From: Eubacteriales bacterium
Lineage (GTDB): Bacteria > Bacillota > Clostridia > Lachnospirales > Lachnospiraceae
Direction of reading: 5' to 3'
Length of the DNA: 38,008 nt
Assembly (NCBI GenBank): GCA_030536755.1
Contig: JAUNPJ010000036.1
Location: 1 to 38,008, forward strand
Position numbers and translations under genes: made by a program. The notes beneath the pieces were generated by a model. The model ran no database searches, had not been told where the DNA came from, and worked only from the letters and a program-made list of their open reading frames with translations. Shown here one piece after another: positions 10,540 to 34,794 of this stretch (the first letter of the stretch is position 1; every line of letters begins with the position of its first letter).

Positions 10540-10568
10540 TTGACGATTTTTGTCAGATACGATATAAT
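10540..10568 (+). promoter_or_regulatory. Main promoter of the nitrogenase-like/hyp operon
   Basis: TTGACG (10540-10545), 17-bp spacer, perfect TATAAT (10563-10568). Transcription should start near 10575, leaving a leader of about 247 nt before the first start codon at 10822. Confidence 0.75.
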
Positions 10569-10574
10569 AAAACC

Positions 10575-10750
10575 AGTAACAACGCAGACGGAACGAAAGA
10601 ATTCTATCCGAATGCAAATGACGTGAATGAAAAAGGCAGACTCTGACGGCGAGGAATATCCGAGCGGGAATAGTTGTAAATATGGTATCACACTCTGAAA
10701 ATCTCTATGTTTTGAGGACGGGATTTTTGCAGAATGTTCGAGTATTCATG
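10575..10750 (+). promoter_or_regulatory. Structured 5' leader of the nitrogenase-like operon (candidate riboswitch or protein-binding leader)
   Basis: The leader contains a hairpin at 10584-10615 with short symmetric internal loops (GCA, CGGA and GAA pairing with UUC, UCCG and UGC), a possible closing pair CAGA/UCUG (10637-10640 with 10694-10697) around a G-rich region, and a hairpin AAAATCTC/GGGATTTT (10698-10705 with 10720-10727). It precedes a strong terminator at 10751. I could not match it to a riboswitch class I know. The combination of long structured leader and terminator suggests ligand- or protein-controlled attenuation. Confidence 0.5.
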
Positions 10751-10783
10751 GCTCTTTTACCGCAACGGTAAGAGAGCTTTTTT
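10751..10783 (+). terminator. Leader terminator (attenuator) upstream of the nitrogenase-like operon
   Basis: Arms 10751-10762 and 10766-10777 pair over 12 bp with one G-U pair, followed by six T. It lies between the only strong promoter and the first gene, so the operon can be expressed only by read-through or antitermination. The ribosome binding site GGGAGG follows at 10805-10810. Confidence 0.8.
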
Positions 10784-10821: not shown

Positions 10822-11583
10822 ATGTTAAAAGTTGCAATTTATGGAAAGGGCGGCATTGGAAAATCAACGGTTACATCAAATCTGGCTGCTGCTTTTGCCA
10901 TGATGGGAAAGAAAGTGATTCAGATTGGGTGTGACCCGAAAGCAGACTCAACGATCAATCTGCTGGGCGGTGAGCCGTTAAGACCGGTCATGAATTACAT
11001 GAGGGAGGAAGATGAGGAACCGGAGAAGCTCGAAGACATCGCCAAAGAGGGATTTGGCGGAGTGCTCTGCATTGAGACGGGAGGACCGACACCGGGACTT
11101 GGATGCGCAGGGCGCGGAATTATCGCGACGTTTCAGCTTCTGGAGGATATGAAGCTGTTTGAAACGTATGAGCCCGATATTGTCCTGTACGATGTTTTGG
11201 GAGATGTTGTCTGCGGCGGCTTTGCGGCACCGATCCGGGAAGGATACGCAGAGAAAGTGCTGATTGTAACTTCCGGCGAGAAGATGGCACTGTATGCAGC
11301 CGACAACATTTTCCGTGCGGTGAAAAATTTTGAGGACAGAAGCTATGCAAGGGTGTTTGGAATTGTATTGAATCACAGAAACGTAGAAAATGAGAAGGAG
11401 AAGGTGCAGGCTTTTTCCGAGAGAATTGAAGTACCCATCGTAGGAGAGATTTTGAGAAGTGATGACATTATCCGTTACGAGGATCAGGGAAAAACGGTCA
11501 TCGAAGGAGATCCTGAGTTACCGATCAGCAAGCGGTTTTTTGCACTGGCTGAGTTATTGTTAAACGAAGAGGAGAACGTATGA
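10822..11583 (+). CDS. NifH-like iron protein (nitrogenase-superfamily reductase), copy 1
   Basis: A 253-residue ATPase/electron donor of the NifH/BchL/CfbC superfamily. It has the P-loop GKGGIGKST at 8-16, switch I DPKADST near 38-44, and the two cysteines that bridge the homodimer's 4Fe-4S cluster: C95 in GLGCAGRG and C131 in [11 protein letters not shown]. It would dock onto a component-1 partner and pass electrons with ATP hydrolysis. It is slightly shorter than nitrogenase NifH (~275-295). The stop overlaps the start of the NifD-like gene. The context (no nifB, nifEN or FeMo-cofactor genes in the window) argues against nitrogen fixation. Assignment to the superfamily is firm; the substrate system is unknown. 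Confidence 0.93.
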   Translation: MLKVAIYGKGGIGKSTVTSNLAAAFAMMGKKVIQIGCDPKADSTINLLGGEPLRPVMNYMREEDEEPEKLEDIAKEGFGGVLCIETGGPTPGLGCAGRGIIATFQLLEDMKLFETYEPDIVLYDVLGDVVCGGFAAPIREGYAEKVLIVTSGEKMALYAADNIFRAVKNFEDRSYARVFGIVLNHRNVENEKEKVQAFSERIEVPIVGEILRSDDIIRYEDQGKTVIEGDPELPISKRFFALAELLLNEEENV

Positions 11584-12872
11584 TGCAGGAAGCTTATTAT
11601 TGTACCGTGGGAGAATTGGCGCAGCTTGGAAAAGATGCCATTCCTCCACAGTTGATATCCAATACACATCTGATTTACAGCTCACCGGCAACGCTGGCGT
11701 TTAATTCGCCGGGAGCGGAGGGGTTTGGTGTAAAACGTGCCGGTCTTGCAGTGCCGGGTTCGATCATGCTCATTGTGGCGCCGGGCTGCTGCGGACGAAA
11801 TACGTCGATGATCAGTTCGATGAGAGAATACCACGACCGGTTTTTCTATCTGATGATGGATGAGACGGATATCGTGACGGGACGCCATTTGAAGAAAATC
11901 CCCAAGGCAGTCAAAGAAATCTGTGAGAGTGTGGAAAAGAAACCATCAGTTGTGATGATCTGTATTACCTGCGTGGATGCGCTTCTGGGAACGGATATGG
12001 AGCGCATCTGCAGAAAGGCGACGGAAGAGGTTGGTCTTCCGGTACGGCCATGCTATATGTATGCATTGACACGAGAGGGAAGAAAACCCCCGATGGTGCA
12101 TGTGCGTCAGTCTCTGTATTCGCTTCTTGAGCCGAAAAAGAAAAAGGGAAATGTGGTGAATCTTTTGGGATTTTTCTCGCCGCTTGTGGATGACTGCGAA
12201 TTGTATGATTTGCTGAGACAGGCAGGCGTGAAGACAATCCATGAGATTTCGCGCTGTCAGGATTATGACGAGTATCTGACAATGGCGGAGGCCAATTTTA
12301 ATGTTGTATTGCATCCGGAGGCACGCTTTGCAGCAGAAGATTTCCACGACAGACTGAAGATTCCGTTTATTGAGCTTACGAGACTGTACCAGATTGACAA
12401 GATTGCAAGCCAGTACCGGGCGTTTAGCGCAGCAATCGGAGCAGAGTTTGACGATGAAAAGCCGAGAGCACAGGCGCAGGTCGTGGTCGACCAGTTCCGT
12501 GAGAGTCACCCGGATGCATCGTTTGCAATCGGGGAGTGTATGAACGGGGATTCGTTTGAACTTTCGCTTGCTCTGGTGCGGTATGGATTTGCAGTCAAAG
12601 AAATTTACGGTACGCTGACAGCCGAAAACTTTATTTATCTGAAACAGCTTGCAAAGCTGAGCCCGGATACGAAAGTGTTCTCCAATCTGGAGCCGACCAT
12701 GCTGTATTATGATGCGACAGATTGTGGAGTCAATCTTACGATCGGAAAGGATGCCGGATATTATCATCCGGAATGTCCGAATGTCGTGTGGAATCAGGAT
12801 CGGCAGCCATACGGATATGCCGGTGTGCGAAGACTTTTTGAGGCGTTGCTCGCAGCAGGAAAGGAGGGCTAA
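11580..12872 (+). CDS. NifD-like nitrogenase component 1 protein, copy 1
   Basis: A 430-residue protein of the nitrogenase component 1 superfamily (alpha-subunit-like). Conserved landmarks are APGCCGRN (C70/C71, position of NifD C88), ITCVDALLGTD (C131, position of NifD C154) and a late PYGYAGVRRLFEALL resembling the end of NifD's cofactor region. The position of the first P-cluster cysteine reads FNSPGAEGFG without Cys. Around the FeMo-cofactor Cys275 position the text is NVVLHPEARF, with His-Pro instead of Cys, and the His442 position also appears changed. It should therefore bind an interface Fe-S cluster but not FeMo-cofactor in the usual way. Translationally coupled to the upstream NifH-like gene. 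Confidence 0.88.
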   Translation: MMQEAYYCTVGELAQLGKDAIPPQLISNTHLIYSSPATLAFNSPGAEGFGVKRAGLAVPGSIMLIVAPGCCGRNTSMISSMREYHDRFFYLMMDETDIVTGRHLKKIPKAVKEICESVEKKPSVVMICITCVDALLGTDMERICRKATEEVGLPVRPCYMYALTREGRKPPMVHVRQSLYSLLEPKKKKGNVVNLLGFFSPLVDDCELYDLLRQAGVKTIHEISRCQDYDEYLTMAEANFNVVLHPEARFAAEDFHDRLKIPFIELTRLYQIDKIASQYRAFSAAIGAEFDDEKPRAQAQVVVDQFRESHPDASFAIGECMNGDSFELSLALVRYGFAVKEIYGTLTAENFIYLKQLAKLSPDTKVFSNLEPTMLYYDATDCGVNLTIGKDAGYYHPECPNVVWNQDRQPYGYAGVRRLFEALLAAGKEG

Positions 12873-12875
12873 GGG

Positions 12876-13916
12876 ATGAAGGGACTGAGAAAATATCTGA
12901 CTCCGTTTGCACCGGACCAGTCGGGAGCAGTATCGGTTTTGTATGAATTGGGTGGAATTCTTGTTATCTGTGATGCAGGTGGATGTACAGGAAATGTCTG
13001 TGGATTTGATGAGCCTCGCTGGTTTTCAAGAAAGAGTGCGGTGTTTAGTGCCGGACTTCGAGATATGGACGCCATCCTAGGACGTGATGATAAATTGGTG
13101 GAAAAGCTTGCGGATGCAGCAGGCAAACTGGACGCCTCGTTTGCGGCTGTCATTGGAACTCCGGTTCCTGCTGTCATTGGAACGGATTACCGTGCGCTGG
13201 AGCGCATGAGCGCAAAGAAAACAGATCTGCCGATTCTGACGGTAGATACGGACGGCATGGAGCTTTATGACGTCGGAGAAGAGAAGGCATATCTGGCACT
13301 GTTTCGTACATTTGCCAAAGAAAAGTTTCCTATAGAAAAGGGCAGAATCGGTGTGCTCGGCACAACGCCGCAGGATTTGAGTAATCTGAAAGCGGCGGAT
13401 CAATTAAAGGAAGTATTGAAGGCCAGGGATGGAAGCAGAGCTGTCTGTTACGGTATGGGCGACGGGCTGGAGGAAGTGAAGAAGGCTTCTGCGTCACAGA
13501 AGAATCTGGTGGTATCACCGGCTGCGCTGGAGGCTGCCCGTTACCTGGAAAAGACATTTGGAACGCCGTATGAGATCGGATATCCGGTTGCGAAAGAGCT
13601 GGTTCCTAAACTGGATTATGCCGGAAAGAAGATTTTGGTGGTACAGCAGCAGGTGATTGCAAACGCCATTCGCGAAGAAATCAAAAGCAGAGCGGCGGAC
13701 GCAGAAGTTGTGACCGCGAGCTGGTTTTCGATGAAGAAGGAATTAAAAGAAGAAAAAGACGTGGCGCTGAAAGAGGAAGATCAGTATATAGAGCTTGCAG
13801 GGAACGGTCAGTGGGATATGATTTTTGCGGATGCATGTATGCAAAGGATGACGCCGAAGTTTGAAGGAACGTTTGTGGATGTGCCGCATTTTGCTGTTTC
13901 CGGAAGAGTGATGTAA
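12876..13916 (+). CDS. NifK-like nitrogenase component 1 protein, copy 1
   Basis: A 346-residue partner subunit, shorter than NifK. Landmarks shared with the second copy are VLYELGG, a cysteine cluster CDAGGCTGNVCG (C32, C37, C42; C37 at the NifK C95 position), GLRDMDAILGRDDK, and TPVPAVIGTD, which corresponds to NifK CMAEVIGDD but with Pro in place of Cys153. It ends in VPHFAVSGRVM, an ending also seen in copy 2 before an extension. It starts 4 bp after the NifD-like stop with AGGAGG upstream, so the two are likely a heterodimer or heterotetramer. The set of three neighbouring cysteines is unusual and may hold a different cluster. Confidence 0.87.
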   Translation: MKGLRKYLTPFAPDQSGAVSVLYELGGILVICDAGGCTGNVCGFDEPRWFSRKSAVFSAGLRDMDAILGRDDKLVEKLADAAGKLDASFAAVIGTPVPAVIGTDYRALERMSAKKTDLPILTVDTDGMELYDVGEEKAYLALFRTFAKEKFPIEKGRIGVLGTTPQDLSNLKAADQLKEVLKARDGSRAVCYGMGDGLEEVKKASASQKNLVVSPAALEAARYLEKTFGTPYEIGYPVAKELVPKLDYAGKKILVVQQQVIANAIREEIKSRAADAEVVTASWFSMKKELKEEKDVALKEEDQYIELAGNGQWDMIFADACMQRMTPKFEGTFVDVPHFAVSGRVM

Positions 13917-13923
13917 AGGTGAG

Positions 13924-16287
13924 ATGCCTATGAAAGAAGAAATAACAAAAAGAATACGAGTGTATGGAATTGTGCAGGGTGTGGGCTTTCGCCCGACAGT
14001 AAGTCGCCATGCCACCAAAAATGGCATAAGGGGAAGCGTCTGTAACAAAGGTCCTTATGTAGAAATATTTGCGCAGGGAACCCAGGAACAGGTGGAGGGA
14101 TTTCTGGATGATCTGGAAAACCATCCGCCGAAAAGAGCGGCGATTTTGAAAATCAATGTGGAGCTCGAAGAAAACCCTGTTTCGTATGAGTGTTTTACTA
14201 TTATCGAGAGTGAAAAAACAAAGGGAGAGATTTTTGTCTCTCCGGATATCGCTATCTGCGAGGAATGCAAGGAGGAAATGTTTCACCCGAAGGACAGGCG
14301 GTATCTGCATCCGTTTATTAACTGTACGTGCTGCGGACCGAGGCTGACGATTCTCGATTCCCTTCCCTATGACCGGGAACGGACGAGTATGAAAGAATTT
14401 CCGATGTGTCCGGATTGTGCAGAAGAATATTACAGTCCAGAGACAAGACGGTATGATGCACAGCCGGTCTGCTGCAACGAGTGCGGCCCGGAGGTTTATC
14501 TGATCGGACGGAAGGAACGGGGACGGGACGCAATCATTTATACCAGAAAGACCATTCAATCCGGAGGAATCGTGGCAATCAAGGGAATTGGCGGCTTTCA
14601 TCTCTGCTGTGATGCGTCTAATGAGGAGACGGTCAGCCGACTGAGAACTCTGAAGCGAAGACCGGCAAAGCCGTTTGCCGTGATGGCAGCAGATATGGAC
14701 GTGGTCAGACGTGAGTGTGAGGTGAGCGAGATTCAGGAGAAAGTGCTCACGGGCCATCAGAAACCGATTCTTCTTCTGGAGAAAAAAGAAGGGGGAATCA
14801 TGGCTCCTTCTGTAGCACCGGACAACCCCAAGATCGGGGTGATGCTTCCCTATGCACCGGTTCAGCTTCTGTTGTTTCAGTACGATGACGGACTTGTGAT
14901 GCCGGATTGTCTGGTGATGACAAGCGGCAACACATCGGGCGCGCCGATCTGCCACAACGATGAAGAAGCGCTGGCAGAGCTGTCTGGTTTTTGCGATTGT
15001 ATGCTGTCTCATGACAGAAAAATTCGCATCCGGGCCGATGATTCTGTCATGGATTATTACAAAGGAGAGCCTTATATGATCAGGCGTTCCAGAGGCTATG
15101 CACCGCTTCCGTTTATGGTTTCCAATCCGTGGGAAGGACAGGTGCTGGCAGTTGGCGGCGAGTTGAAAAATACATTTTGCATTGGTGTGGACGGACGATT
15201 TTACCCATCTCCTTATGTCGGAGATCTGGAGGATCTGAGAACGGTAAATGCTCTGAAAGAGACGATTACCCGCCTGGAGACCCTTCTGGAGGTGGAGCCT
15301 TCGATTGCAGTTTGTGACCTGCATCCGAGATACAATTCCACGGCAATCGCAGAGGAACTGGGACTTCCTGTGAAAAAGGTACAGCACCACTATGCACATA
15401 TTCTCTCCTGTATGGCCGAAAATGACTGTGCGGAGCCGGTGATCGGCGTATCGTTTGACGGAACGGGATACGGAACGGATGGAACGGTATGGGGCGGAGA
15501 AATCCTGGCAGCAGATTATGACGATTTTCAGAGACTGGGAAGCATTGAGCCGTTTTTGCAGATTGGCGGAGATGTTTCTGCAAAAGAGGGCTGGCGCATT
15601 GCCGTTTCTCTGATTTATGGTTATACAAAAGATCAGGAGAAAACAAGGCAGATCGCACAAAGTCTGGGATTGTGCAGCGAGACCGAATGCAAAGTGCAGC
15701 TGACGATGGCAGAGCGAAAAATCAATGCCATCACATCAACCAGTGCGGGACGTTTGTTTGACGGCGTCAGCGCAATCCTGGGAATCCGGCGCTGCTCGAC
15801 GTTTGAGGGAGAGGCTTCGATGACACTGGAGTTTGTGGCAGAAGCCTACGAAAAAGACAAAGGAAATAAAGAGGCGTTTTCCAAAGTGCTTAAGGAAGAG
15901 GAAATTCCTTTCTTGAAAGAAACACAGGAGGAACGGCTGCTTTTCAATACCGGTGCACTTGTGGAACACATCGTAAAGGCACGGATGGAGGGAGAAGATG
16001 TTGGCTATCTGGCTTACTATTTCCATGCACAGCTCGCACGCCAGATTGTGGCTGCCTGTGTGCGTATCCGGGAAGAAAACGGACGAAACAAAGTGGCGCT
16101 AAGCGGCGGTGTATTTCAGAATCTGCTGCTTTTGCGTCTGACGGATGAGCTTTTGGAAGCAGAAAAATTTGAAGTGTTAAGACACAGCATGATTCCGCCA
16201 AATGACGGAGGAATTGCTGTTGGACAGGCTGTTTACGGGATGCAGCAATTATATAAAAGGAAACAACATCCAGAAGGAGGAGAATAA
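13924..16287 (+). CDS. hypF: Carbamoyltransferase HypF
   Basis: A 787-residue HypF, which converts carbamoyl phosphate and ATP to carbamoyl-adenylate and transfers the carbamoyl group to the C-terminal cysteine of HypE, the first step in making cyanide ligands. Domains in order: acylphosphatase (RVYGIVQGVGFRP, residues 12-24), two zinc fingers (C112/C115/C134/C137 and C162/C165/C184/C187), YrdC-like domain (GGIVAIKGIGGFHLCCD, ~214-400), and Kae1-like domain with the HHYAH metal motif, SFDGTGYGTDG and GGVFQN. All domains are complete and of normal length. It sits between the first NifK-like gene and hypC. Hydrogenase maturation is the known role; its place inside a nitrogenase-like operon is the unusual point. 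Confidence 0.96.
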   Translation: MPMKEEITKRIRVYGIVQGVGFRPTVSRHATKNGIRGSVCNKGPYVEIFAQGTQEQVEGFLDDLENHPPKRAAILKINVELEENPVSYECFTIIESEKTKGEIFVSPDIAICEECKEEMFHPKDRRYLHPFINCTCCGPRLTILDSLPYDRERTSMKEFPMCPDCAEEYYSPETRRYDAQPVCCNECGPEVYLIGRKERGRDAIIYTRKTIQSGGIVAIKGIGGFHLCCDASNEETVSRLRTLKRRPAKPFAVMAADMDVVRRECEVSEIQEKVLTGHQKPILLLEKKEGGIMAPSVAPDNPKIGVMLPYAPVQLLLFQYDDGLVMPDCLVMTSGNTSGAPICHNDEEALAELSGFCDCMLSHDRKIRIRADDSVMDYYKGEPYMIRRSRGYAPLPFMVSNPWEGQVLAVGGELKNTFCIGVDGRFYPSPYVGDLEDLRTVNALKETITRLETLLEVEPSIAVCDLHPRYNSTAIAEELGLPVKKVQHHYAHILSCMAENDCAEPVIGVSFDGTGYGTDGTVWGGEILAADYDDFQRLGSIEPFLQIGGDVSAKEGWRIAVSLIYGYTKDQEKTRQIAQSLGLCSETECKVQLTMAERKINAITSTSAGRLFDGVSAILGIRRCSTFEGEASMTLEFVAEAYEKDKGNKEAFSKVLKEEEIPFLKETQEERLLFNTGALVEHIVKARMEGEDVGYLAYYFHAQLARQIVAACVRIREENGRNKVALSGGVFQNLLLLRLTDELLEAEKFEVLRHSMIPPNDGGIAVGQAVYGMQQLYKRKQHPEGGE

Positions 16288-16290
16288 AAG

Positions 16291-16500
16291 ATGTGTGTTG
16301 GGTTATCGGCAAAAGTAGTAAAGATTGGTGATGGAGTGGCGATTATTGATGCCGGCGGAGCAAAGAGAGAGGTGTCTTCCCAGTTGATTCAGGATCTGGA
16401 GCCAGGTGATTATGTGATGGTGCATGCCGGAGTGGCAATCGCCAAAATTACAGACGAGGATGAGAGTGAAACCGATGAGCTGCTGGAGGGATTGTTATGA
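16291..16500 (+). CDS. hypC: HypC/HupF-type chaperone
   Basis: A 69-residue small chaperone starting MCVG, with the essential Cys2 that, after removal of Met, holds the iron of the Fe(CN)2CO unit together with HypD. The conserved VHAGVAIA near residues 44-51 supplies the family histidine. AGAAGGAGGAG precedes the start. Its stop overlaps the hypD start (ATGA), so the two partners are translated together. In hydrogenase systems HypC also delivers the unit to the large subunit; here the recipient is unknown. Confidence 0.95.
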   Translation: MCVGLSAKVVKIGDGVAIIDAGGAKREVSSQLIQDLEPGDYVMVHAGVAIAKITDEDESETDELLEGLL

Positions 16501-17534
16501 AGAAAAGTGCAAAAGAAATCATCGAAACGTATGATGGCCCGTCCGTCCGGATGATGGAGGTCTGCGGAACGCATACGCATGAAAACTTCCGGCTTGGAAT
16601 CCGAAAGCTTTTGCCAAAACAGGTGGAATTGATATCCGGACCGGGATGCCCGGTATGTGTGACACCGGTAGGCTTTATTGACGAGGCAGTTTATCTTGCG
16701 CTGGAGAGAGGCGTGACGATTTGTACGTTTGGAGATCTCGTTCGTGTTCCGGGAACGAAGATGAGTCTGGCCGGAGCCAGAGCCGAGGGCGCAAAAATAC
16801 AGATTGTATATTCTCCCGCCGATGCAGAAAAATACGCCAAAGAGCATCCACAGGAACAGGTTGTGTTCCTTTCCGTAGGGTTTGAGACGACAACACCGGC
16901 AAGCTGTCTGTCTGTGCAAAAGGCTCAGGAAGACCAGCTTACAAATTATTCTCTTTTGACTGCAAATAAAACAATGCCCGGCGCATATGCTGCGTTAAAG
17001 GGAAGTGCGGATGTCTTTCTGTATCCGGGACATGTCAATGCGATTACGGGAACGGATTTGTGTGAATCACTGACAAAAGAAGGTGTCAGTGGTGTCGTTG
17101 CAGGATTCACTGCAAAGGAGCTTCTGACGGCAATGGCAGTGGCACTGGTGAAATATCAGGAGGGAAAACCATTTTTTGTCAATGCGTATCCGCGGGTTGT
17201 GACAAAAGAAGGAAGTTTGCAGGCACAGAAACTGGTGGAAGAATTGATGGAACCGTGTGATTCCGAGTGGCGCGGTCTTGGTGTGATTCCGGGATCGGGA
17301 CTGAATCTGCGAGAAGCATGGCAGGCATATGATGCAAGAAAAAAATATGAGATGCCAAAAATCGAAGGAAAGCCAAATCCGGCCTGTCGCTGTGGGGATG
17401 TACTGCAGGGAAAATGTAAGCCCTGTGACTGTAAAGTGTTCGGAAAAGGTTGTACACCGCTGCATCCGATCGGTGCGTGCATGGTTTCCAATGAAGGTGC
17501 CTGTTCCGCATATTTCCAGTATGGAAAGGAATAA
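16497..17534 (+). CDS. hypD: Fe(CN)2CO assembly scaffold HypD
   Basis: A 345-residue iron-sulfur protein on which the Fe(CN)2CO group is assembled. It retains C23 in MEVCGTHTH (the iron ligand equivalent), the redox pair GPGCPVC at C51/C54, and a C-terminal cysteine series (ACRCGD, GKCKPCDC, GKGCTP, GACMV) that includes the 4Fe-4S ligands. The residues after the first motif, HENFRLGI, differ from the more usual MAIFRxGI-type text in Firmicutes hydrogenase HypD, which might reflect a specialised subgroup. Overlaps hypC by 4 bp. Confidence 0.95.
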   Translation: MKKSAKEIIETYDGPSVRMMEVCGTHTHENFRLGIRKLLPKQVELISGPGCPVCVTPVGFIDEAVYLALERGVTICTFGDLVRVPGTKMSLAGARAEGAKIQIVYSPADAEKYAKEHPQEQVVFLSVGFETTTPASCLSVQKAQEDQLTNYSLLTANKTMPGAYAALKGSADVFLYPGHVNAITGTDLCESLTKEGVSGVVAGFTAKELLTAMAVALVKYQEGKPFFVNAYPRVVTKEGSLQAQKLVEELMEPCDSEWRGLGVIPGSGLNLREAWQAYDARKKYEMPKIEGKPNPACRCGDVLQGKCKPCDCKVFGKGCTPLHPIGACMVSNEGACSAYFQYGKE

Positions 17535-17588
17535 ACGAGATGTCTTTGAAAAAGACGGGAAATACATCGTATATGGAGGGAGAAATAA

Positions 17589-18596
17589 ATGAAAAATCAA
17601 ACAGTAACGATGGCTCACGGTGCTGGCGGAAGGCAGACATCGGAGCTGATCGATCAGGTATTTAAAGCACATTTTTCCAATCCCGATCTGACTGCAGATG
17701 ATGCGGCAGTATTGGCGCCGCCGGTGGGAAAAATGGCAGTATCGACCGATGGATTTATCGTATCTCCGGCATTTTTCCCGGGTGGCAATATCGGAAAGTT
17801 GTCCATCTGCGGTACGGTCAATGATCTGGCCTGCATGGGCGCAAAACCCTTATATCTGACATGTGCGTTTGTCATTGAGGAAGGATTTCCGATGGAAAAA
17901 CTGGAGGAGATTGCTGCCGCCATGGAAAAAACGGCCAAAGAGGCAGGTGTTCGTATTGTGTCCGGTGATACCAAAGTGGCCGGAAAAGGCCAGGTGGACG
18001 GCATTTTCATCACAACGACCGGTATGGGTGAGATTGAAGAGGGCGTGCAGACGTCCGGCGATTTTGCAAAGCCGGGAGATGCCATCATTGTGACCGGCGA
18101 TGTGGGAAGACATGGCTGTACGATTTTGCTTGCAAGAGAAGAGTTTGGCATTGAGGCAGAGATTACCAGCGACTGTGCACCGCTTTGGGGAACGGTAAAA
18201 GCAGTGATGGATGAGACACATGACATTCATGTGATCCGTGACGCAACCCGCGGCGGTGTGGGAACGGTTCTGTATGAGATTGCGGAGCAGAGTAACGTGG
18301 GAATCCGTCTGGATGCAGCGGCTGTTCCGGTTGATCCGGCAGTCAAAGGTGTGTGTGGTATGCTGGGACTGGAGCCGCTTTATCTGGCATGTGAGGGACG
18401 ACTGGTGATTATGGCACCGAAAGAAGTGGCACCTCAGATTCTGGAAGTATTGAAAAAAGGACCGTATTCGCAGAATGCGGCAATCATCGGTGAAGTGACA
18501 AAAGAGCAGCCGGGGCGTGTGGTGATGACAACGGAAATCGGAACACAGGCACTTCTTCCGCAGCCGGGAGGAGAGCTTCTGCCACGTATTTGCTGA
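17589..18596 (+). CDS. hypE: Carbamoyl dehydratase HypE
   Basis: A 335-residue ATPase of the PurM/ThiL/SelD-like fold that dehydrates the carbamoyl group on its C-terminal cysteine to a thiocyanate and donates cyanide to HypD-bound iron. It starts with the typical MAHGAGGRQTSELI, contains STDGF and GTVNDLACMGAKP, and ends in LPRIC, the diagnostic flexible tail with the acceptor cysteine (C335). GGAGGGA lies upstream of 17589. With hypF, hypC and hypD it completes the cyanide/iron branch; hypA and hypB (nickel insertion) are not in the window. Confidence 0.96.
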   Translation: MKNQTVTMAHGAGGRQTSELIDQVFKAHFSNPDLTADDAAVLAPPVGKMAVSTDGFIVSPAFFPGGNIGKLSICGTVNDLACMGAKPLYLTCAFVIEEGFPMEKLEEIAAAMEKTAKEAGVRIVSGDTKVAGKGQVDGIFITTTGMGEIEEGVQTSGDFAKPGDAIIVTGDVGRHGCTILLAREEFGIEAEITSDCAPLWGTVKAVMDETHDIHVIRDATRGGVGTVLYEIAEQSNVGIRLDAAAVPVDPAVKGVCGMLGLEPLYLACEGRLVIMAPKEVAPQILEVLKKGPYSQNAAIIGEVTKEQPGRVVMTTEIGTQALLPQPGGELLPRIC

Positions 18597-18621
18597 TTTT
18601 ATTGACAGAGAGGGAGCGATT

Positions 18622-18885
18622 ATGGACACAAGAGTTGCAGTAATTTCTATTATTGTGGAAAATAAAAATGCGATTGAGCGATTGAATCATTTACTTCAGG
18701 AGGAATCGGAATACATCATTGGAAGAATGGGCATACCCTACCGGGAAAAAGGAGTCAGTATCATCAGCATTGTCATTGATGCACCGCAGGACAGGATCAG
18801 TGCTCTGTCCGGAAAACTTGGCAGAATGGAAGGTGTTTCTGCGAAAACTGCGTACTCCAATGTGATCACAAAAGCGGAGGGATAA
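18622..18885 (+). CDS. TM1266-type ACT-like putative regulator
   Basis: An 87-residue ACT/NikR-C-like domain protein of the family named for Thermotoga TM1266, annotated as a putative regulator of iron-only hydrogenase systems. Typical features are the opening [12 protein letters not shown], the [18 protein letters not shown] segment and the [15 protein letters not shown] helix. It has no DNA-binding domain, so it may act by binding a ligand or a protein partner. Its normal company is [FeFe]-hydrogenase maturation genes (hydEFG); here it lies between hypE and a NifH-like gene, tying it instead to Hyp and nitrogenase-like proteins. Confidence 0.85.
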
Positions 18886-18898
18886 GAAAGGCGAACAT

Positions 18899-19666
18899 AT
18901 GATTAAAATTGCAGTTTATGGAAAAGGCGGAATCGGAAAATCAACGACCGTGTCCAATGTTGCGGCTGCGTTTGCCGAGCAGGGTCTGAAAGTGATGCAG
19001 ATTGGCTGTGACCCGAAGGCAGATTCCACACTGCAGCTTCGGCATGGGGAAGAAGTTCCGACGGTGCTGGATTTATATAATCAGAAAAAAAATAATTTTC
19101 AGCTGGAAGACATGGTAAGAATTGGATACAATGGTGTCATTTGTGTGGAAGCGGGCGGTCCGACTCCGGGACTGGGATGCGCGGGGCGCGGCATTATCAC
19201 GGCACTGGAGAAGCTGAAAGAAAAAGGTGCTTATGAGACCTACAAGCCGGATATTGTGCTGTACGATGTGCTTGGAGATGTCGTCTGCGGCGGTTTTTCC
19301 ATGCCGATGCGAAAGGGATATGCCGATCAGGTGTTTATCCTCACTTCTGGTGAAAATATGGCGATTCATGCGGCCGCCAACATCGCGATGGCTGTCACGA
19401 ATTTCAAAAAGCGTGGATATGCAAGCCTCGGCGGTCTGATCTTAAACCGACGCAATGTGAATCGGGAAGACGAAAAAGTGCAGGAGCTTGCCCAGGATTT
19501 TGATACGAAAATTGTCGGAACGCTGTCCCACAGTGAACAGGTAACCATGGCGGAAGAACAGGGAAAAATTCTTCTGGAATGTTATCCGGACAGTGCGATG
19601 GCAGAGGAATACCGTCTTTTGGCGAAGCAGATTTTGAAAATCTGTCAGGAGGGAAAAGAATGCTAA
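18899..19666 (+). CDS. NifH-like iron protein, copy 2
   Basis: A 255-residue paralogue of the gene at 10822, with P-loop GKGGIGKST (8-16), switch I DPKADST, and cluster cysteines C94 (GLGCAGRG) and C130 ([11 protein letters not shown]). Differences from copy 1 concentrate in the 45-75 region and the C-terminal third ([16 protein letters not shown]), which in NifH contact the partner, suggesting that each iron protein serves its own D/K pair. The stop overlaps the start of the second NifD-like gene by 7 bp. Confidence 0.93.
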
Positions 19667-20988
19667 AGAGAGTAGGAGATACGATTGATACGTCAGATGC
19701 AATCGTTGCCATAAAAGATGCCGCATTTCCCGCACCGTTTGCCTCACAGTTGGAATTTAATTCTCCGGCGCATGGCAACTGGAATATTGTACATACAGGA
19801 ATGCTGCTGCCGGAAGCCCGGCAGATCTATGTGTGCGCCGATAACTGTATGCGCGGCGTCGTTCTCACTGCTGCGGAGATGAATGCGGCAGACCGGTTTT
19901 CTTTCGTGATCATAGAGGAAGAGCATCTGCTGAACGGCAATCTGGAGGATATCACGATTGAGGGCGTGGCGGATGTCATTGAAAAATTGACGGAGCATCC
20001 CAAGGCAGTGTTGTTATTTACCGTTTGTCTGCATCATTTTCTGGGCTGCGATCTGGAGCGTGTCTATCAGGAACTGGAGGAGCGATTTCCGGATATTGCG
20101 TTTATCCGCTGTTATATGGATCCGATCATGCAGAAAACAGGCCTGACACCGGATCAGAAATTAAGAAAAGCGCTGTATGATCCGCTGCCGCAGAGAGAGG
20201 CAGATTCAAAGACTGTCGCGTTGCTTGGCAGTGATTTTGCGCTGGATGAGAGTTCGGATCTGGTGCAGCTTCTGCAGAAAAACGGATACGAATTCAAAGA
20301 ACTGCCGAAGTGCCAAAGCTGGGAGGAATATCTGGAATTGAGCAAAGCAAGTCTGTTTGTGTCCTGTTACCCGCCCGGTCGGTATGGCGCCCAGGATCTG
20401 GCAGACAGACTTGGCAGGAAACACCTGTATCTTCCGGCATGTTTTAGATATGAAGAGATTGGCAGTCATCTGAATGCACTTGCGGATGCGTTAGGGCTGC
20501 CGGAACAGGATTTTCAGGAAGAAATCGAAAGCTGTGAAAAAGCACTGGCACAGGCAAAGCAGGAGATTGGAGACATGCCGATCGCACTGGACTATATGTT
20601 CCATCCGAGACCGCTGGGGCTGGCGAGACTGCTGATCTCTCATGGATTTGCGGTAAAGACGATCTATCTGGATGCCATCAGTTTGGAAGAGCAGGAGGAT
20701 TTTGCATGGCTGCAGGCACATGCGCCGGAGCTTGAGCTGGCGGCAACGATACATGTCAAGATGCGTGTGCTGCCAAGAGGCGGTGAGCAGGAAGTTCTGG
20801 CAATCGGGCAGAAGGCTGCGTGGTTTCGCAGGAGCAGTCATTTTGTAAATATGGTGCAGGGCGGCGGCCTGTATGGATTTGATGGAATCCGAAGACTGGC
20901 AGAGTTGATGATGGAAGCCTTCCGTGAGGAAAAAGATACAGAATCTCTGGTTGTGCAAAAGGGATGGGGGTGTGATTGCTGTCTATGA
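19660..20988 (+). CDS. NifD-like nitrogenase component 1 protein, copy 2
   Basis: A 442-residue paralogue of the gene at 11580. It keeps FNSP near 33-36, a cysteine motif VCADNCMRG (C59, C63), [16 protein letters not shown] (C123, C130) and [14 protein letters not shown] near the end. The FeMo-cofactor ligand positions are again not obvious. The C-terminus ends GWGCDCCL, three cysteines in the last five residues, absent from copy 1. The start at 19660 is chosen for AGGAGGGA upstream and overlap with the NifH-like stop; an in-frame ATG at 19579 would overlap the upstream gene by 88 bp. Divergence from copy 1 is strong, which fits scaffold-versus-enzyme roles but does not prove them. Confidence 0.85.
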
Positions 20989-22121
20989 GACAATCGTATC
21001 GTATTATACCGATTTATACTGCGGATGTGTCCGGTGTCTGTTCGGCCTTGTATGAGCTGGGCGGCATGACGGTGATGCACGACCCATCCGGCTGCAATTC
21101 CACCTACAACACGCATGATGAGATTCGCTGGTACGACCAGGACAGTCTGATTTATATTTCTGGCTTGAATGAGATTGATGCCATCATGGGAAACGATGAG
21201 AAATTTATTGGGGATATTGAGGATGCTGCCAGAGCGCTGAAGCCGAACTTCATTGCGCTGGCAGGGTCTCCGATTCCGTTTATGAACGGAACGGATTTCC
21301 CGGCGTTGGCGGAAATGCTGGAAGAAGACACGAATATTCCGGCGTTTTCCGTTCCGACGAATGGCATGCATGATTATGTGTATGGCGCGGGAATCGCACT
21401 GGCAGAGATTGCAGAGCGTTTTACCAATCCGGAAAGTCGGTGTACCAATCCGCGCAGTCTGAACCTGCTCGGCGTGACACCGCTCGACTTTGGTCCGCTT
21501 TCTCATGTACAGGCAATGAAACGAAGTTTGGAACAGGCGGGATGGGAAGTCGTTTCGACCTGGGCGATGGGGGATGATCTGAAGACATTGAGGCGCGCCG
21601 GAGAGGCAGCAGTCAATCTGGTGGTTTCTTCGGTTGGTCTTCGCAGTGCAGAAGTATTGAAGCGAAAATTCGGTACACCTTATGTAGTCGGTGCTCCGGT
21701 TGGAAAATTTACAGAGAAGCTGGTGAATATACTGGAGCAGACGGTTGACGACAGAGAGGATACCGTCGCCTATCTGAGTGACAGATTTACAGGAGAACCG
21801 GAAATTACGTTGATCGGCGAACCTGTTACGATGGGGTCACTGGCTGCGGCCATTGAAATGCAGACGAAACGACCTGTGCAGGTGTTATGTCCGCTCAGAG
21901 AAACGGATGGGCTGCTGTCTGCAAATGATGCGGCAGTCCGCGGGGAGGAAGAACTGGAAGAGCGATTGAAAGGTGCAAAAAATATAGTGGCAGATCCGTT
22001 GTATCGACCGATCTGCCCGCCAGAGAGTCGGTTTTATGAATTGCCGCACATTGCATTTTCAGGAAGGATTTACCTGAAAAAACTTCCTGTTTTTTCGGAG
22101 CTATTCTTCTTTTTATCTTGA
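20985..22121 (+). CDS. NifK-like nitrogenase component 1 protein, copy 2
   Basis: A 378-residue paralogue of the gene at 12876, sharing ALYELGG, GLNEIDAIMGNDEK, SPIPFMNGTD and the C-terminal LPHIAFSGRI. The cysteines at C19 and C37 are kept (C37 aligns with C37 of copy 1), while the NifK C153 position is Pro. I use the ATG at 20985 because it overlaps the upstream stop as ATGA; a TTG at 20976 is in frame. After SGRI the reading frame continues 16 more residues through the operon's terminator hairpin, so the tail is probably an accidental extension. Likely the partner of the NifD-like copy 2. Confidence 0.87.
   Translation: MRQSYRIIPIYTADVSGVCSALYELGGMTVMHDPSGCNSTYNTHDEIRWYDQDSLIYISGLNEIDAIMGNDEKFIGDIEDAARALKPNFIALAGSPIPFMNGTDFPALAEMLEEDTNIPAFSVPTNGMHDYVYGAGIALAEIAERFTNPESRCTNPRSLNLLGVTPLDFGPLSHVQAMKRSLEQAGWEVVSTWAMGDDLKTLRRAGEAAVNLVVSSVGLRSAEVLKRKFGTPYVVGAPVGKFTEKLVNILEQTVDDREDTVAYLSDRFTGEPEITLIGEPVTMGSLAAAIEMQTKRPVQVLCPLRETDGLLSANDAAVRGEEELEERLKGAKNIVADPLYRPICPPESRFYELPHIAFSGRIYLKKLPVFSELFFFLS
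22060..22095 (+). terminator. Intrinsic terminator inside the 3' end of the last operon gene
   Basis: CAGGAAG (22060-22066) pairs with CTTCCTG (22083-22089), preceded by AAAAAA and followed by TTTTTT. The stop codon of the NifK-like gene lies 26 bp further on, so the terminator is within the coding sequence. Confidence 0.7.
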
Positions 22122-26083: not shown

Positions 26084-26133
26084 GAATCTGATGTATGGCG
26101 TGGAGAAAGCAGATAGAAGCAGGAGGTGGCGGG

Positions 26134-27957
26134 ATGGCGGATAGCAATCAAAGAAAGCGGAGTTATTGGATTGGCAGTGTGTTTTTGGTAATCATCGTGT
26201 TTGCAGTGTGCTATACACAAGTGTTTTATTCGGTAGATAAATTTCTGTCGGATCCGTTGTATTACACATCTTCTGTGCCTGACAGCAGTATAAAAATCGT
26301 TGCCATTGACGAAGAAACCATACAGAAATACGGCGATGTCAGGACATGGGATAGAAAAATCTGGGCAGAGCTTATAGAATTGCTCAACAGTGGGGATGTC
26401 GATCCGGCAGTGATCGCTCTTGATCTTATGTACATAGGTGCTGTAGAGGAAGCATCTGACACACATTTTGCAAAAGTGTGTAAAAGCGGTGGAAATGTGA
26501 TTACAGCAGTGAATGCCGTGTACGGCACAAAGCTTAGCAAACAAGGCAGAACGATAACAGCAGATACCGGTCATATAGAAATGGTGGAATACCCCTATGA
26601 AGAACTGAAAGCGGCTTCTTCTTACGGTTTTGTCAATATATTGCAGGACGCAGACGGCTATATTCGGTATGCAAGAGAATATATTGATTACGATGGAGAG
26701 AGAATCGATTTCTTCCCCGTTGCGGTGTACCGGTTATATTGCGAAAAGCATGGAATGGAACCGAAGCTGCCTGAAACCTTTCACGGAAATCTGTTCTCTT
26801 TTGACTATACAGGGAAGAGCGGCACTTATGAGGTTGTTTCTATGTGCGATGTTCTGGATGGAACGGTTGATGCTCGGGTGTTTGCTGACAGCGTGGTGTT
26901 GGTGGGTGCATATGCGCCGGGAATGCAGGACTCCTATCATGTGCCGATTCAAAAAGGCAGCCCGATGTATGGCGTCGAGGTTCACGCAAATATTCTGGAA
27001 TCGCTTCTGGAGCAGAATACCAAAGTGGCGGTCATGCCCTGGCTTTATGCTTTCATCGCTGCGATAACCGTTTTGGGATATTATATCCTTGTTAGCCGCG
27101 TGAAACTTCTTGCGTCAACAATCATGTCTGTGGCTGTGATCGGTGCGGATTTGCTGATCGGTAAGCTCCTGTTTGGCGTTGGTTATGTGACCAATATCAT
27201 CGAAGTGCCGATGTTTGTGCTGGTTATTTACGGATATAATCTGGCGCATAAATATGTTGCAGAGGTGATACACAGAAAAAAAGTGCTTTCCGCCTTCAAA
27301 AAATATGTTGCTCCTCAGGTAGTGGACGAGATATCCAGACAAAAGGATTTTAAAATTATCCTTGGAGGAGAAAACAGAAATATAGCGGTTTTGTTTGTGG
27401 ATATCCGTGGGTTTACGCCGATGTCGGAAAGTCTTGAGCCGGAACAGGTGGTAGGCATTCTGAACGAGTATCTTCAGCTTACAACGCAATCTGTTTTCAA
27501 TAACGGAGGGACATTGGATAAATTTATCGGTGATGCCACGATGGCGGTTTTTAATGCTCCTTTCGATCTGGAGGATTATATCTACAAGGCAGTTTGTGCT
27601 GCCAGGGATATTGCCGCAGGCAGTGCTGAACTGGAACAAAAGCTGATGGAACGGTTTGGCAGAACCATAAGTTTCGGCATAGGGATCAACTGTGGAAATG
27701 CGGTCGTTGGCAATATCGGCTGCGAATACAGAATGGATTACACCGCCATTGGAGATACGGTCAATACAGCGGCAAGACTGGAGAGCAAAGCCGGACCGGG
27801 AGAAATCCTTGTCAGCGAAGCTGTATATGAACATTTGCGGGATCGTGTCCATATGGAGTATGTGGAAAAAATGATGCTTAAGGGAAAAAAAGAGGGCGTT
27901 AATGTATATCGGGTCCCGGTCACGGATTCTGCAGACACGGTAAATTATGTTCGCTGA
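26134..27957 (+). CDS. CHASE2-domain adenylate/guanylate cyclase
   Basis: A 607-residue membrane signalling enzyme. One membrane helix (~12-29) precedes an extracellular CHASE2 sensor domain (~35-300; IVAIDEETIQKYG, VIALDLMY), then three helices (~300-400) and a cytosolic class III cyclase domain (~415-590). The two metal aspartates are D423 (LFVDIRGF) and D467 (FIGDATMAVF), the purine-recognition Lys is K463, and the C-terminal YTAIGDTVNTAARLE supplies the Asp/Thr, Asn and Arg residues. All catalytic residues are present. Specificity looks adenylyl-type (Lys and Asp) but guanylyl activity cannot be excluded. AGGAGG at 26121-26126 sets the start. It heads a seven-gene operon and faces a divergent GAF-ABC gene. 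Confidence 0.92.
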   Translation: MADSNQRKRSYWIGSVFLVIIVFAVCYTQVFYSVDKFLSDPLYYTSSVPDSSIKIVAIDEETIQKYGDVRTWDRKIWAELIELLNSGDVDPAVIALDLMYIGAVEEASDTHFAKVCKSGGNVITAVNAVYGTKLSKQGRTITADTGHIEMVEYPYEELKAASSYGFVNILQDADGYIRYAREYIDYDGERIDFFPVAVYRLYCEKHGMEPKLPETFHGNLFSFDYTGKSGTYEVVSMCDVLDGTVDARVFADSVVLVGAYAPGMQDSYHVPIQKGSPMYGVEVHANILESLLEQNTKVAVMPWLYAFIAAITVLGYYILVSRVKLLASTIMSVAVIGADLLIGKLLFGVGYVTNIIEVPMFVLVIYGYNLAHKYVAEVIHRKKVLSAFKKYVAPQVVDEISRQKDFKIILGGENRNIAVLFVDIRGFTPMSESLEPEQVVGILNEYLQLTTQSVFNNGGTLDKFIGDATMAVFNAPFDLEDYIYKAVCAARDIAAGSAELEQKLMERFGRTISFGIGINCGNAVVGNIGCEYRMDYTAIGDTVNTAARLESKAGPGEILVSEAVYEHLRDRVHMEYVEKMMLKGKKEGVNVYRVPVTDSADTVNYVR

Positions 27958-27975
27958 AAACCAGGAGGAAAGATT

Positions 27976-30324: not shown

Positions 30325-30328
30325 GAGC

Positions 30329-31546
30329 ATGGCAAATAAGTATGACTTTGAGTGGCGTGTACTGGAACTGCTGAATAAAAGCAGGCACACGTCTGAAACG
30401 ATGCGGATTTTTCTGGAAGAGCTTGCTGCAGAGTCCAGGGCAACAGCCGCTTCCGTATGGCTGCTGGATGAAGAAGACAATATCAGCCTGTATGCTGCCT
30501 GTGGGGAGAATTGCGGAGGATTGGAACAGATTGTTCTAAAGCGCGGCCAGGGACTGTGTGGAGCATGTATTGAACAGAACGATGTTGTTCTTTCAGGAGA
30601 TGTTGCAAAGGATCGGAGATGGGAGAGCAAAGCGGACAAGGTGACAGGATTTCATACGGAAAGTATTTTGTCAATCCCAATTTCTGCATCGCAATCGGGA
30701 GCTTTTGGCTGTCTGCAGCTGCTGAACAAAAAAGAGGGCACCTTTGATGAAAACGACATTTCACTGGGCCGTACAATGGCCGATTTGTTGGCGAAATGGT
30801 TCTATGAAAGCGGTATCCGTATTCCTTCTTTGAAAAAACGAGAGGTTCTGGTGGAGGGTGTGAATCTGACAAAGACTTATGGTGAGGGTGATGCTTGTGT
30901 GCACGCCCTGAATGATGTAAGTTTTCGCATCCATAAAGGAGAACTTACCGTAATTCTTGGCAGCAGCGGCAGCGGGAAAAGTACGCTTCTAAATGTAATC
31001 GGGGGTATGGCCAGACCCGACAGCGGAAAGGTGATTTTTGATGGCTTGGGTGATATCGCAGGCTTTCGGAAAAAGCAGCAGACCGTGTTCCGCAAAGATA
31101 TGGTTGGATTCGTTTTCCAGTTCTATAACCTGATACCTGAGCTGACGGTATGGGAGAATGTTGCCTTAGTTGCAGATATGGTAAAAAATCCCCGCCCGGT
31201 TGAGGAAGTGCTTGAGATGATGGGATTGTCTCATAGGAAGAATCACTATCCGTCACAGCTATCAGGAGGAGAACAGCAAAGAGTGTCTATTGCAAGGGCA
31301 CTTGTAAAAAACGCAGCTTTTTTGCTTTGCGATGAACCAACGGGAGCTCTGGATTACAATACAGGAAAGCAAATATTGATTGAATTGGAAAAGTTAGCGA
31401 GGGAGCAGGGACAAACGGTGGTGATCGTTACTCATACCACCTCCATCTCCACCATTGCTGACCGCATTTTAAAGATGAGAAGTGGTCGAATTGTGGAGGA
31501 AATCGTAAATCCGCACCCGGTTTCTGCAGCTACGGTAGAATGGTAA
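30329..31546 (+). CDS. ABC transporter ATPase with N-terminal GAF domain, second copy
   Basis: A 405-residue paralogue of the gene at 24656, with the same unusual order: GAF domain (1-165) then MacB/LolD-like ATPase (175-405; Walker A GSSGSGKST, FVFQFYNLIP, signature LSGGEQQR, Walker B FLLCDEPT). The GAF has N133-K134, F139 and D143, the NK-F-x3-D pattern, with Ile where the final Glu would be, and several cysteines (C58, C62, C77, C80) that the first copy lacks; redox or metal sensing is an alternative to nucleotide binding. It is in the cyclase operon between an FtsX permease and a TIM-barrel protein. Confidence 0.9.
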   Translation: MANKYDFEWRVLELLNKSRHTSETMRIFLEELAAESRATAASVWLLDEEDNISLYAACGENCGGLEQIVLKRGQGLCGACIEQNDVVLSGDVAKDRRWESKADKVTGFHTESILSIPISASQSGAFGCLQLLNKKEGTFDENDISLGRTMADLLAKWFYESGIRIPSLKKREVLVEGVNLTKTYGEGDACVHALNDVSFRIHKGELTVILGSSGSGKSTLLNVIGGMARPDSGKVIFDGLGDIAGFRKKQQTVFRKDMVGFVFQFYNLIPELTVWENVALVADMVKNPRPVEEVLEMMGLSHRKNHYPSQLSGGEQQRVSIARALVKNAAFLLCDEPTGALDYNTGKQILIELEKLAREQGQTVVIVTHTTSISTIADRILKMRSGRIVEEIVNPHPVSAATVEW

Positions 31547-31565
31547 GCGGGCAAGGTGTACGGCG

Positions 31566-32372: not shown

Positions 32373-32376
32373 GTCA

Positions 32377-34767: not shown

Positions 34768-34794
34768 TGTTTGTTGAAACCAGGAGGAAAGATT

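Follow-up and report, generated by a model that had tools for sequence, protein, structure and literature searches.

What do the hydrogenase maturation genes hypF, hypC, hypD and hypE do between two sets of nitrogenase-like genes? This question is raised by a 38,008-nt stretch of DNA from a member of the Lachnospiraceae (Eubacteriales bacterium, GenBank assembly GCA_030536755.1, contig JAUNPJ010000036.1, forward strand), the whole of which is referred to as the window. The window is one contig (C108) of a 3.84-Mb genome bin (G000) with a completeness of 99.99% and a contamination of 5.1%. Within it, eleven genes at 10822..22121 form a single tight unit on the + strand in the order H1-D1-K1-hypF-hypC-hypD-hypE-TM1266-H2-D2-K2, where H, D and K designate NifH-, NifD- and NifK-like proteins and HDK1 and HDK2 the two sets; the successive junctions measure -4, 3, 7, 3, -4, 54, 25, 13, -7 and -4 nt. 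An earlier inspection of the letters by themselves (the sequence-only reading) had described one tight unit of HDK sets around hypFCDE, and the genes, all on the + strand with gaps of -7 to 54 nt, bear this out; its count of ten genes was one short, as the 87-aa TM1266-like gene at 18622-18885 had been overlooked. We consider it probable, judging from the distribution and neighbourhood of the genes, that this operon replaces HydG as the supplier of an Fe(CN)(CO) unit to HydE and HydF, the maturation proteins of [FeFe]-hydrogenase.

Assembly of the H-cluster, the cofactor of [FeFe]-hydrogenase, is usually treated as requiring HydG, which provides its CO and CN. In the known pathway, CO and cyanide arise from tyrosine, which HydG cleaves, and an Fe(CO)2(CN)(cysteine) unit is passed to HydE and then to HydF. 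As HydE- and HydF-like genes adjoining the operons of several relatives passed the equivalog cut-offs, the three maturases were counted in 250 genomes, an even draw from the larger family group. A genome of this sample was regarded as a carrier of the operon if it encoded D1 at ≥56% identity. Seventeen genomes, including that of the window, were carriers (D1 identity 56–100%; the next match was at 30%). HydE exceeded its cut-off in 137 of the 250 genomes, HydF in 137, and HydG in 111. HydE, HydF and the hydrogenase domain PF02906 were each present in 17/17 carriers, and HydG above cut-off was observed in none of the 17. When only the 132 genomes encoding HydE as well as HydF are considered, HydG occurred in 0/17 with the operon compared to 106/115 without it (Fisher p = 2.9e-15); for HydG and the operon across all 250 genomes, p = 4e-5 was obtained. 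Assembly gaps do not explain the absence of HydG in G191 and G232, since both are single contigs that are 99–100% complete. Weak HydG matches were considered as divergent HydG and rejected, as they turned out to be ThiH in the three genomes that were opened (G000, G191 and G071; 508–533 bits, cut-off 380). G069, G167, G203 and G230 had no HydG match better than E 3e-27. In a second collection, the named loci, which comprises the best 80 of 476 D1-related loci, HydG was absent from the map of all 80 stretches; some of these loci are from genomes of the family sample (L170, e.g., shares one contig by length with L074 of that sample), so that the two collections overlap. Replacement of HydG by the operon is well supported by these genomic data.

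The operon is also physically linked to genes of the [FeFe] system. In 22 of the 80 named loci, HydE or HydF was located within the fetched flank (≤10 kb), either adjoining the operon or within it. L074 (by length the same contig as L170), L184 and L190 have hydE-hydF between D1 and K1. The operon adjoins HydE/HydF in Actinomycetota too. In one family carrier, G203, hypE is followed 0.8 kb further on by a hydA gene and two partner-like genes of the same orientation; the contig also encodes HydE and HydF. The genome of the window encodes a HydA (TIGR02512, 448 bits compared to a cut-off of 406) with the motifs TSCCPAW, MPCTAKKME and EVMACRGGC, of which the TSCCP type is taken here to mark a canonical H-cluster. 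Its gene is situated 2.6 kb from hydE-hydF on contig C24, clustered with two genes that by look, without a family search, resemble NuoF-/NuoE-type partners, and this cluster contains no hydG. When the best one or two hydrogenases per genome were fetched, the canonical TSCCP motif was seen in 12/17 carriers. The TM1266-like protein (18622..18885, + strand, 87 aa) belongs to PF21699 (111 bits), a family named 'iron-only hydrogenase system regulator, putative'. A second HydE is encoded in the same bin, away from hydF and hydA (L214 6240-7271, contig C65 of G000; 571 bits).

Several species with this operon had already attracted attention for their maturation genes. Di Leonardo et al. (2022; PMC9431212) studied eight clostridial acetogens with HydE and HydF, of which three have hydG, and the available part of their text offers no firm explanation. 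According to the same part, hypCDEF occur without hypAB in five of the eight (PMC9431212). Clostridium ljungdahlii, C. ragsdalei and C. carboxidivorans are reported there to have an FeFe-hydrogenase, HydE and HydF with no identified hydG; the first two have neither hydG nor hypAB, and C. carboxidivorans has hypAB plus second copies of hypC, hypD and hypE (PMC9431212). All three carry the operon in our named loci. In C. autoethanogenum, from which an [FeFe]-hydrogenase complex has been isolated (excerpt of PMC6288185), the hyp genes are ordered F-C-D-E by locus tag (PMC9431212, part of the text). No publication linking the genes of the operon was found among the matches listed in the open-licence literature, as judged by title, start of the abstract and term counts; subscription papers are mostly, and bioRxiv is entirely, outside this scope.

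A number of observations weigh against the replacement of HydG. The p-values overstate independence, because the genomes are related. Nine genomes with HydE and HydF (G011, G048, G117, G128, G134, G142, G181, G226 and G227) lack both HydG and the operon, so that the absence of HydG can have other causes or other replacements. The presence of PF02906 in all carriers proves little, since this domain occurs in 228/250 family genomes compared to 137 with HydE. Among the hydrogenases fetched, G025, G071, G202 and G203 displayed only TSCSPGW, and G083 displayed no such pattern. The genome of the window is itself a bin with 5.1% contamination and a second HydE. As to the acetogens, the available part of PMC9431212 assigns hydG candidates to C. 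autoethanogenum, C. drakei and C. scatologenes and atypical ones elsewhere, and C. drakei carries the operon. The same source reports one [NiFe]-hydrogenase in each of the eight acetogens, and for this reason the operon hyp genes of C. ljungdahlii may work for that enzyme as well, or for it alone.

The last point touches another explanation of the hyp genes, namely that they serve a [NiFe]-hydrogenase and that the nitrogenase-like genes are chance neighbours. HypF (carbamoyltransferase; 13924..16287, TIGR00143 767 bits), HypC (chaperone/scaffold; 16291..16500, PF01455 80 bits, TIGR00074 hypC/hupF 65 bits), HypD ([4Fe-4S] scaffold; 16497..17534, TIGR00075 377 bits) and HypE (cyanide-forming dehydratase with a C-terminal PRIC; 17589..18596, TIGR02124 433 bits) are all encoded on the + strand and exceed their equivalog cut-offs. 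In the named loci the motifs that we take to be the family or catalytic motifs of these proteins are largely intact: the PRIC end of HypE in 77/79, CVG of HypC in 72/73, CGTH and GPGCPVC of HypD in 77/77, and VQGVGFRP of HypF in 88/90. In the genome of the window, a search for the [NiFe]-hydrogenase family PF00374 gave no match, and the HypD of the operon was the sole HypD match. Thus, the idea that the Hyp proteins here do not serve a [NiFe]-hydrogenase, already part of the sequence-only reading, was strengthened. HypD exceeded its cut-off in 46/250 family genomes. Twenty-nine genomes with HypD lack the operon, and 28 of them have PF00374 (the exception is G051); among the 17 carriers, 15 were without a PF00374 match. 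The two carriers with PF00374, G069 and G230, which by themselves favor a [NiFe] role as do the eight acetogens reported with such an enzyme (PMC9431212, in part), have a second HypD 1.6–1.9 kb from the [NiFe] match. In a tree of 46 HypD rows chosen by hand (31 operon HypDs, the window and few outside references), the 32 operon HypDs from Bacillota and Actinomycetota formed one clade with a support of 100 and a long stem, with the 14 others outside. Service to a [NiFe]-hydrogenase is therefore ruled out in the genome of the window (no PF00374, single HypD) and in most family carriers (15/17 without PF00374). As a general account with chance neighbours we regard it as hardly tenable, although an added role in acetogens is possible.

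Chance neighbourhood is also at odds with the constancy of the arrangement. HypF and HypE follow in 61/61 named loci that have ≥7.5 kb downstream of D1, and since all usable loci carry both, the association is not due to chance. The map places HypD in 58 of these 61 loci; loss of HypD in the other three was considered and rejected as a map artefact, as an open HypD frame dropped by the map is present there. In 15 of the 16 relatives from the family, the gene after K1 (or a D1-K1 fusion) is hypF; in G091, the contig ends at K1. HDK2 lies in the same stretch as the operon, or is joined to hyp, in 14/16.

Alternatively, HypCDEF might mature a so far unrecognised Fe(CN)2CO protein other than a PF00374 hydrogenase, the loss of HydG being a coincidence of lineage. 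The lack of hypA and hypB in five of the eight acetogens, as far as the available part of PMC9431212 goes, would fit such a protein, as would the nine further genomes that have neither HydG nor the operon. However, coincidence does not readily produce 0/17 compared to 106/115 genomes with HydG, nor an operon adjoining HydE/HydF in Actinomycetota as well, and we consider this explanation very improbable.

The nitrogenase-like proteins are likewise all encoded on the + strand. H1 (10822..11583) is a NifH-like ATP-dependent reductase (PF00142, 292 bits; nifH equivalog 307 compared to a cut-off of 394), as is H2 (18899..19666; PF00142, 303 bits; nifH 324 compared to 394). D1 (11580..12872) is a NifD/NifE-like subunit (PF00148, 107 bits; best equivalog nifE, 69 compared to 505), and K1 (12876..13916) is a short NifK-like subunit of 346 aa (PF00148, 73 bits; nifE 44 compared to 505). 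D2 (19660..20988; NifD-like, PF00148, 53 bits) and K2 (20985..22121; NifK-like, PF00148, 104 bits) have longest frames from 19579 and 20976, respectively, but starts at 19660 and 20985 are more likely. Like HypF, HypC, HypD and HypE, every protein of the operon exceeded the cut-off of its Pfam family. None of the H, D and K proteins, in contrast, reached the cut-off of the NCBIfam nitrogenase, BchLNB, BchXYZ and CfbCD equivalogs that they matched; H1 scored 301 of the 402 bits demanded for CfbC, and K2 63 of 490 for BchB and 25 of 268 for methan_mark_13. Nitrogenase proper was ruled out, all NCBIfam Nif equivalog scores being below cut-off. Alignments revealed invariant residues in each subunit: C70, C71, C128, C131, C158 and also C226 in D1 (15 sequences), D14, C37 and C42 in K1 (14 sequences), C59, C63 and C123 in D2 (22 sequences), and D14 and C37 in K2 (22 sequences).

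Trees of the H and D/K proteins were built from seven selected operon loci and few outside references, with no Bch, Cfb or Mar sequences. D1, K1, D2 and K2 each formed one clade, and D1/K1 and D2/K2, for which the sequence-only reading had suggested such trees, fell outside the few Nif and NifE references. In two loci D1 and K1 are joined in one frame (L081 9354-11792 and L083 5448-8012; 812 and 854 aa), suggesting that the two act as a pair. The earlier description of two complete H-D-K sets is accurate for the operon of the window and does not extend to a general rule, as several operons of Actinomycetota have no mapped H2 (L159, L160, L164, L171 and L202); a single H protein may serve both D/K pairs there. 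Additional nitrogenase-like genes were noted in operon genomes. The bin of the window has a third NifHDK-like set, below the equivalog cut-offs (L063 7371-12149, contig C65 of G000), adjoining an NMT1-type substrate-binding protein and a gene resembling metK; G124 has D-K without a mapped H (L050), and G191 has K-D-H (L052).

The separate position of these proteins leaves room for the proposal of the sequence-only reading, in which a new nitrogenase-like enzyme contains Fe(CN)2CO from HypCDEF or uses it as a substrate and has a metabolic role of its own, unrelated to hydrogenase. Besides the separate D1/K1 and D2/K2 clades in trees with few Nif and NifE references, the dedication of the hyp genes to the operon within the family is in line with this proposal. 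It leaves unexplained, however, why HydG is missing in 17/17 carriers and HydE and HydF are present in 17/17, why the operon includes TM1266, and why HydE/HydF are located inside some operons. These features point to maturation of [FeFe]-hydrogenase rather than to an enzyme built for its own end, and we give the new-enzyme proposal little credence.

The two sets differ in the company they keep. In six loci of the family sample without hyp genes (L053, L056, L058, L060, L061 and L062), an HDK2-type set, whose D/K proteins group with the D2/K2 of the operon in the trees, occurs with TM1266 and a FecBCD-type importer; the transporter families were checked in L060 and L062. L060 has the importer ATPase in fusion with a TM1266 domain. 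HydE and HydF without HydG are present in four of the genomes of these loci (G117, G134, G226 and G227); of the remaining two, G224 has HydG, and G175 is without HydF and HydG. Whether the hyp genes are separable from the HDK sets, as the sequence-only reading had put it, has thus two answers: hyp accompanied HDK1 in every case with sufficient visible contig, and HDK2 does occur without hyp. HDK1 is accordingly a companion of hyp, and HDK2 for the most part one of HydE/HydF. For the hyp-less HDK2 genomes an imported precursor is conceivable, because four of the six have HydE and HydF but no HydG. In two other genomes with HydE and HydF and no HydG or D1-like match, G142 (L217) and G181 (L218), hydF and TM1266, joined by hydE in L217, are found beside an NMT1-type ABC transporter.

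The partial independence of HDK2 bears on a further explanation, in which the Hyp proteins alone supply the CN and CO of the H-cluster and the HDK sets contribute something else to the pathway, e.g., the dithiomethylamine bridge, sulfide, or reduced clusters of HydE/HydF. The same association data fit this explanation, and the occurrence of HDK2 with HydE/HydF but without hyp indicates that at least HDK2 is not tied to the making of cyanide. On the other hand, 106 genomes have HydE, HydF and HydG and no operon, so that the need for it seems confined to genomes without HydG, and HDK1 is linked to hyp wherever visible. We consider it unlikely that the Hyp proteins act alone.

If the operon as a whole replaces HydG, the steps may be envisaged as follows. 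According to the available part of PMC11736057, HydG gives HydE an Fe(Cys)(CO)2(CN) unit, from which HydE is proposed to make Fe2(SH)2(CN)2(CO)4. HypF and HypE make cyanide from carbamoyl phosphate, and HypCD carries Fe(CN)2CO (PMC12134894, in part). With their motifs intact and going by the established roles of their families, HypF and HypE of the operon would turn carbamoyl phosphate into cyanide, and an iron-cyanide-carbonyl unit would be put together by HypCD. The set of ligands must then change, because each iron bears one CN and two CO in the HydG unit, compared to two CN and a single CO in the Hyp unit. H1D1K1 and H2D2K2 would carry out ATP-driven, low-potential CO formation or ligand exchange, and the product would go to HydE. 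HDK1 would act in the Hyp step, since it is found with hyp wherever visible, and HDK2 in a later, shared step, since it also occurs with HydE/HydF without hyp. The chemistry thus assigned to the two sets, CO formation or ligand exchange, is tentative and considerably less likely than the replacement of HydG itself. Equally speculative is a wider picture in which the nitrogenase-like proteins are organometallic assembly enzymes that, together with HypCDEF and under control of a leader RNA, build an Fe(CO)2(CN)-type unit for HydE from carbamoyl phosphate and a C1 source, and in which hyp-less HDK2 relatives import a precursor or substitute by FecBCD-/NMT1-type transporters.

The leader RNA invoked here is an element at 10628..10685 (+ strand) with the core CTCTGACGGCGAGG-AATAT-CCGAGCGGGAATAG, which is matched by a model (R1) built from 33 leaders picked by pattern. 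R1 matched 59/80 named loci and the window on the operon strand at E up to 0.09, and in the 58 loci with a mapped H1 the match ended -1 to 442 nt before H1. Among the fetched stretches of the family sample, 10 of the 20 related to the operon were matched (16 of the 20 hold H1) and elsewhere a single marginal one, L053 (E 0.26); no match was obtained on 18 separately fetched Hyd stretches. Acetogen leaders were not matched by R1, though they resemble a diverged form. In 60 distinct leader rows (set A7), 99.6% of the pair cells were standard, and three of the four pairs varied on both sides, above 500 shuffles, in an alignment that was itself fitted to the model. RNAalifold on set A6 indicated no covariation, as the pairs are invariant among the pattern-picked leaders. 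Rfam gave no match at gathering for the window and seven loci, and the families that appeared when E was allowed up to 10 were all implausible. The element, a candidate orphan riboswitch, may represent a new one. Upstream of it, at 10540..10568 (+ strand), lies a promoter-like site (TTGACG/17 nt/TATAAT) that agrees with the consensus at 11/12 positions, a consensus match alone in a region with 17 such sites in total compared to 13.9 in shuffles. Between the element and H1, at 10750..10778 (+ strand), is an intrinsic-terminator-like hairpin (region total 17 sites compared to 9.8 in shuffles); such a hairpin was present ≤200 nt upstream of H1 in 41/91 leaders, a count that has no shuffled control. 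Both TM1266 and the leader RNA probably have a regulatory role.

Carriers among the named loci include Eubacterium ramulus, Roseburia faecis, Coprococcus comes, Blautia luti, B. schinkii, B. massiliensis and Anaerobutyricum hallii as well as Clostridium ljungdahlii, C. ragsdalei, C. carboxidivorans, C. drakei and C. luticellarii; the operon was further found in bins of Coriobacteriaceae and Atopobiaceae and in one bin of Synergistaceae. Searches of plasmids and phages yielded distant relatives only. A record deposited as phage from human faeces (MT836848.1, 7490-8179), perhaps a bacterial contig, encodes an H1-like protein with 57% identity over 92%. The window also encodes, at 26095-37143, a CHASE2-adenylate cyclase and, after it, a pair of FtsX permeases resembling each other (782 and 790 aa), a GAF-ABC ATPase and a FecR protein carrying repeats of the GYTGDTYC type.

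Should HydG indeed be replaced by the operon, a second, unrelated chemistry would lead to the same cofactor, nitrogenase-like enzymes would have an unforeseen role, and the Hyp proteins would be used beyond [NiFe]-hydrogenase. The H-cluster would have a second biological origin of its CO and CN. HDK1 would be a gene-level candidate for the anaerobic source of CO, a step unresolved even for [NiFe]-hydrogenase. Maturation of [FeFe]-hydrogenase would be explained in common carriers of the human gut such as Blautia, Roseburia, Coprococcus, Anaerobutyricum and E. ramulus. Two puzzles of the industrial acetogens, the missing hydG and hypCDEF without hypAB, as they appear in the available part of PMC9431212, would be accounted for as well.

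Compared with known systems, the operon combines parts of several. With nitrogenase and NifEN it shares the fold families PF00142 and PF00148 of its H and D/K proteins, and NifE is the best solved relative by sequence (E 3e-12 for D1, 4e-10 for K1); unlike these, its D/K proteins are placed outside Nif/NifE in a tree with few references. In the tetrapyrrole reductases BchLNB, BchXYZ and CfbCD and in the methylthio-alkane reductase MarHDK, too, a D/K partner works with an H protein that depends on ATP, and the best equivalog of K2 is BchB, but the operon proteins score below all cut-offs for BchLNB, BchXYZ and CfbCD. We know of no link to Hyp proteins for any of these four systems. HypABCDEF maturation is resembled in the full HypC, HypD, HypE and HypF with their family motifs; in contrast to it, there is no [NiFe] large subunit in the genome of the window or in 15/17 carriers, and the operon HypD forms a separate clade. 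HydEFG maturation offers a further parallel: HydE and HydF are encoded in the genome of the window, as is a hydrogenase whose motifs are canonical, and some related operons hold or adjoin HydE/HydF. In place of a HydG above cut-off, however, the operon genomes have Hyp proteins and two nitrogenase-like complexes.

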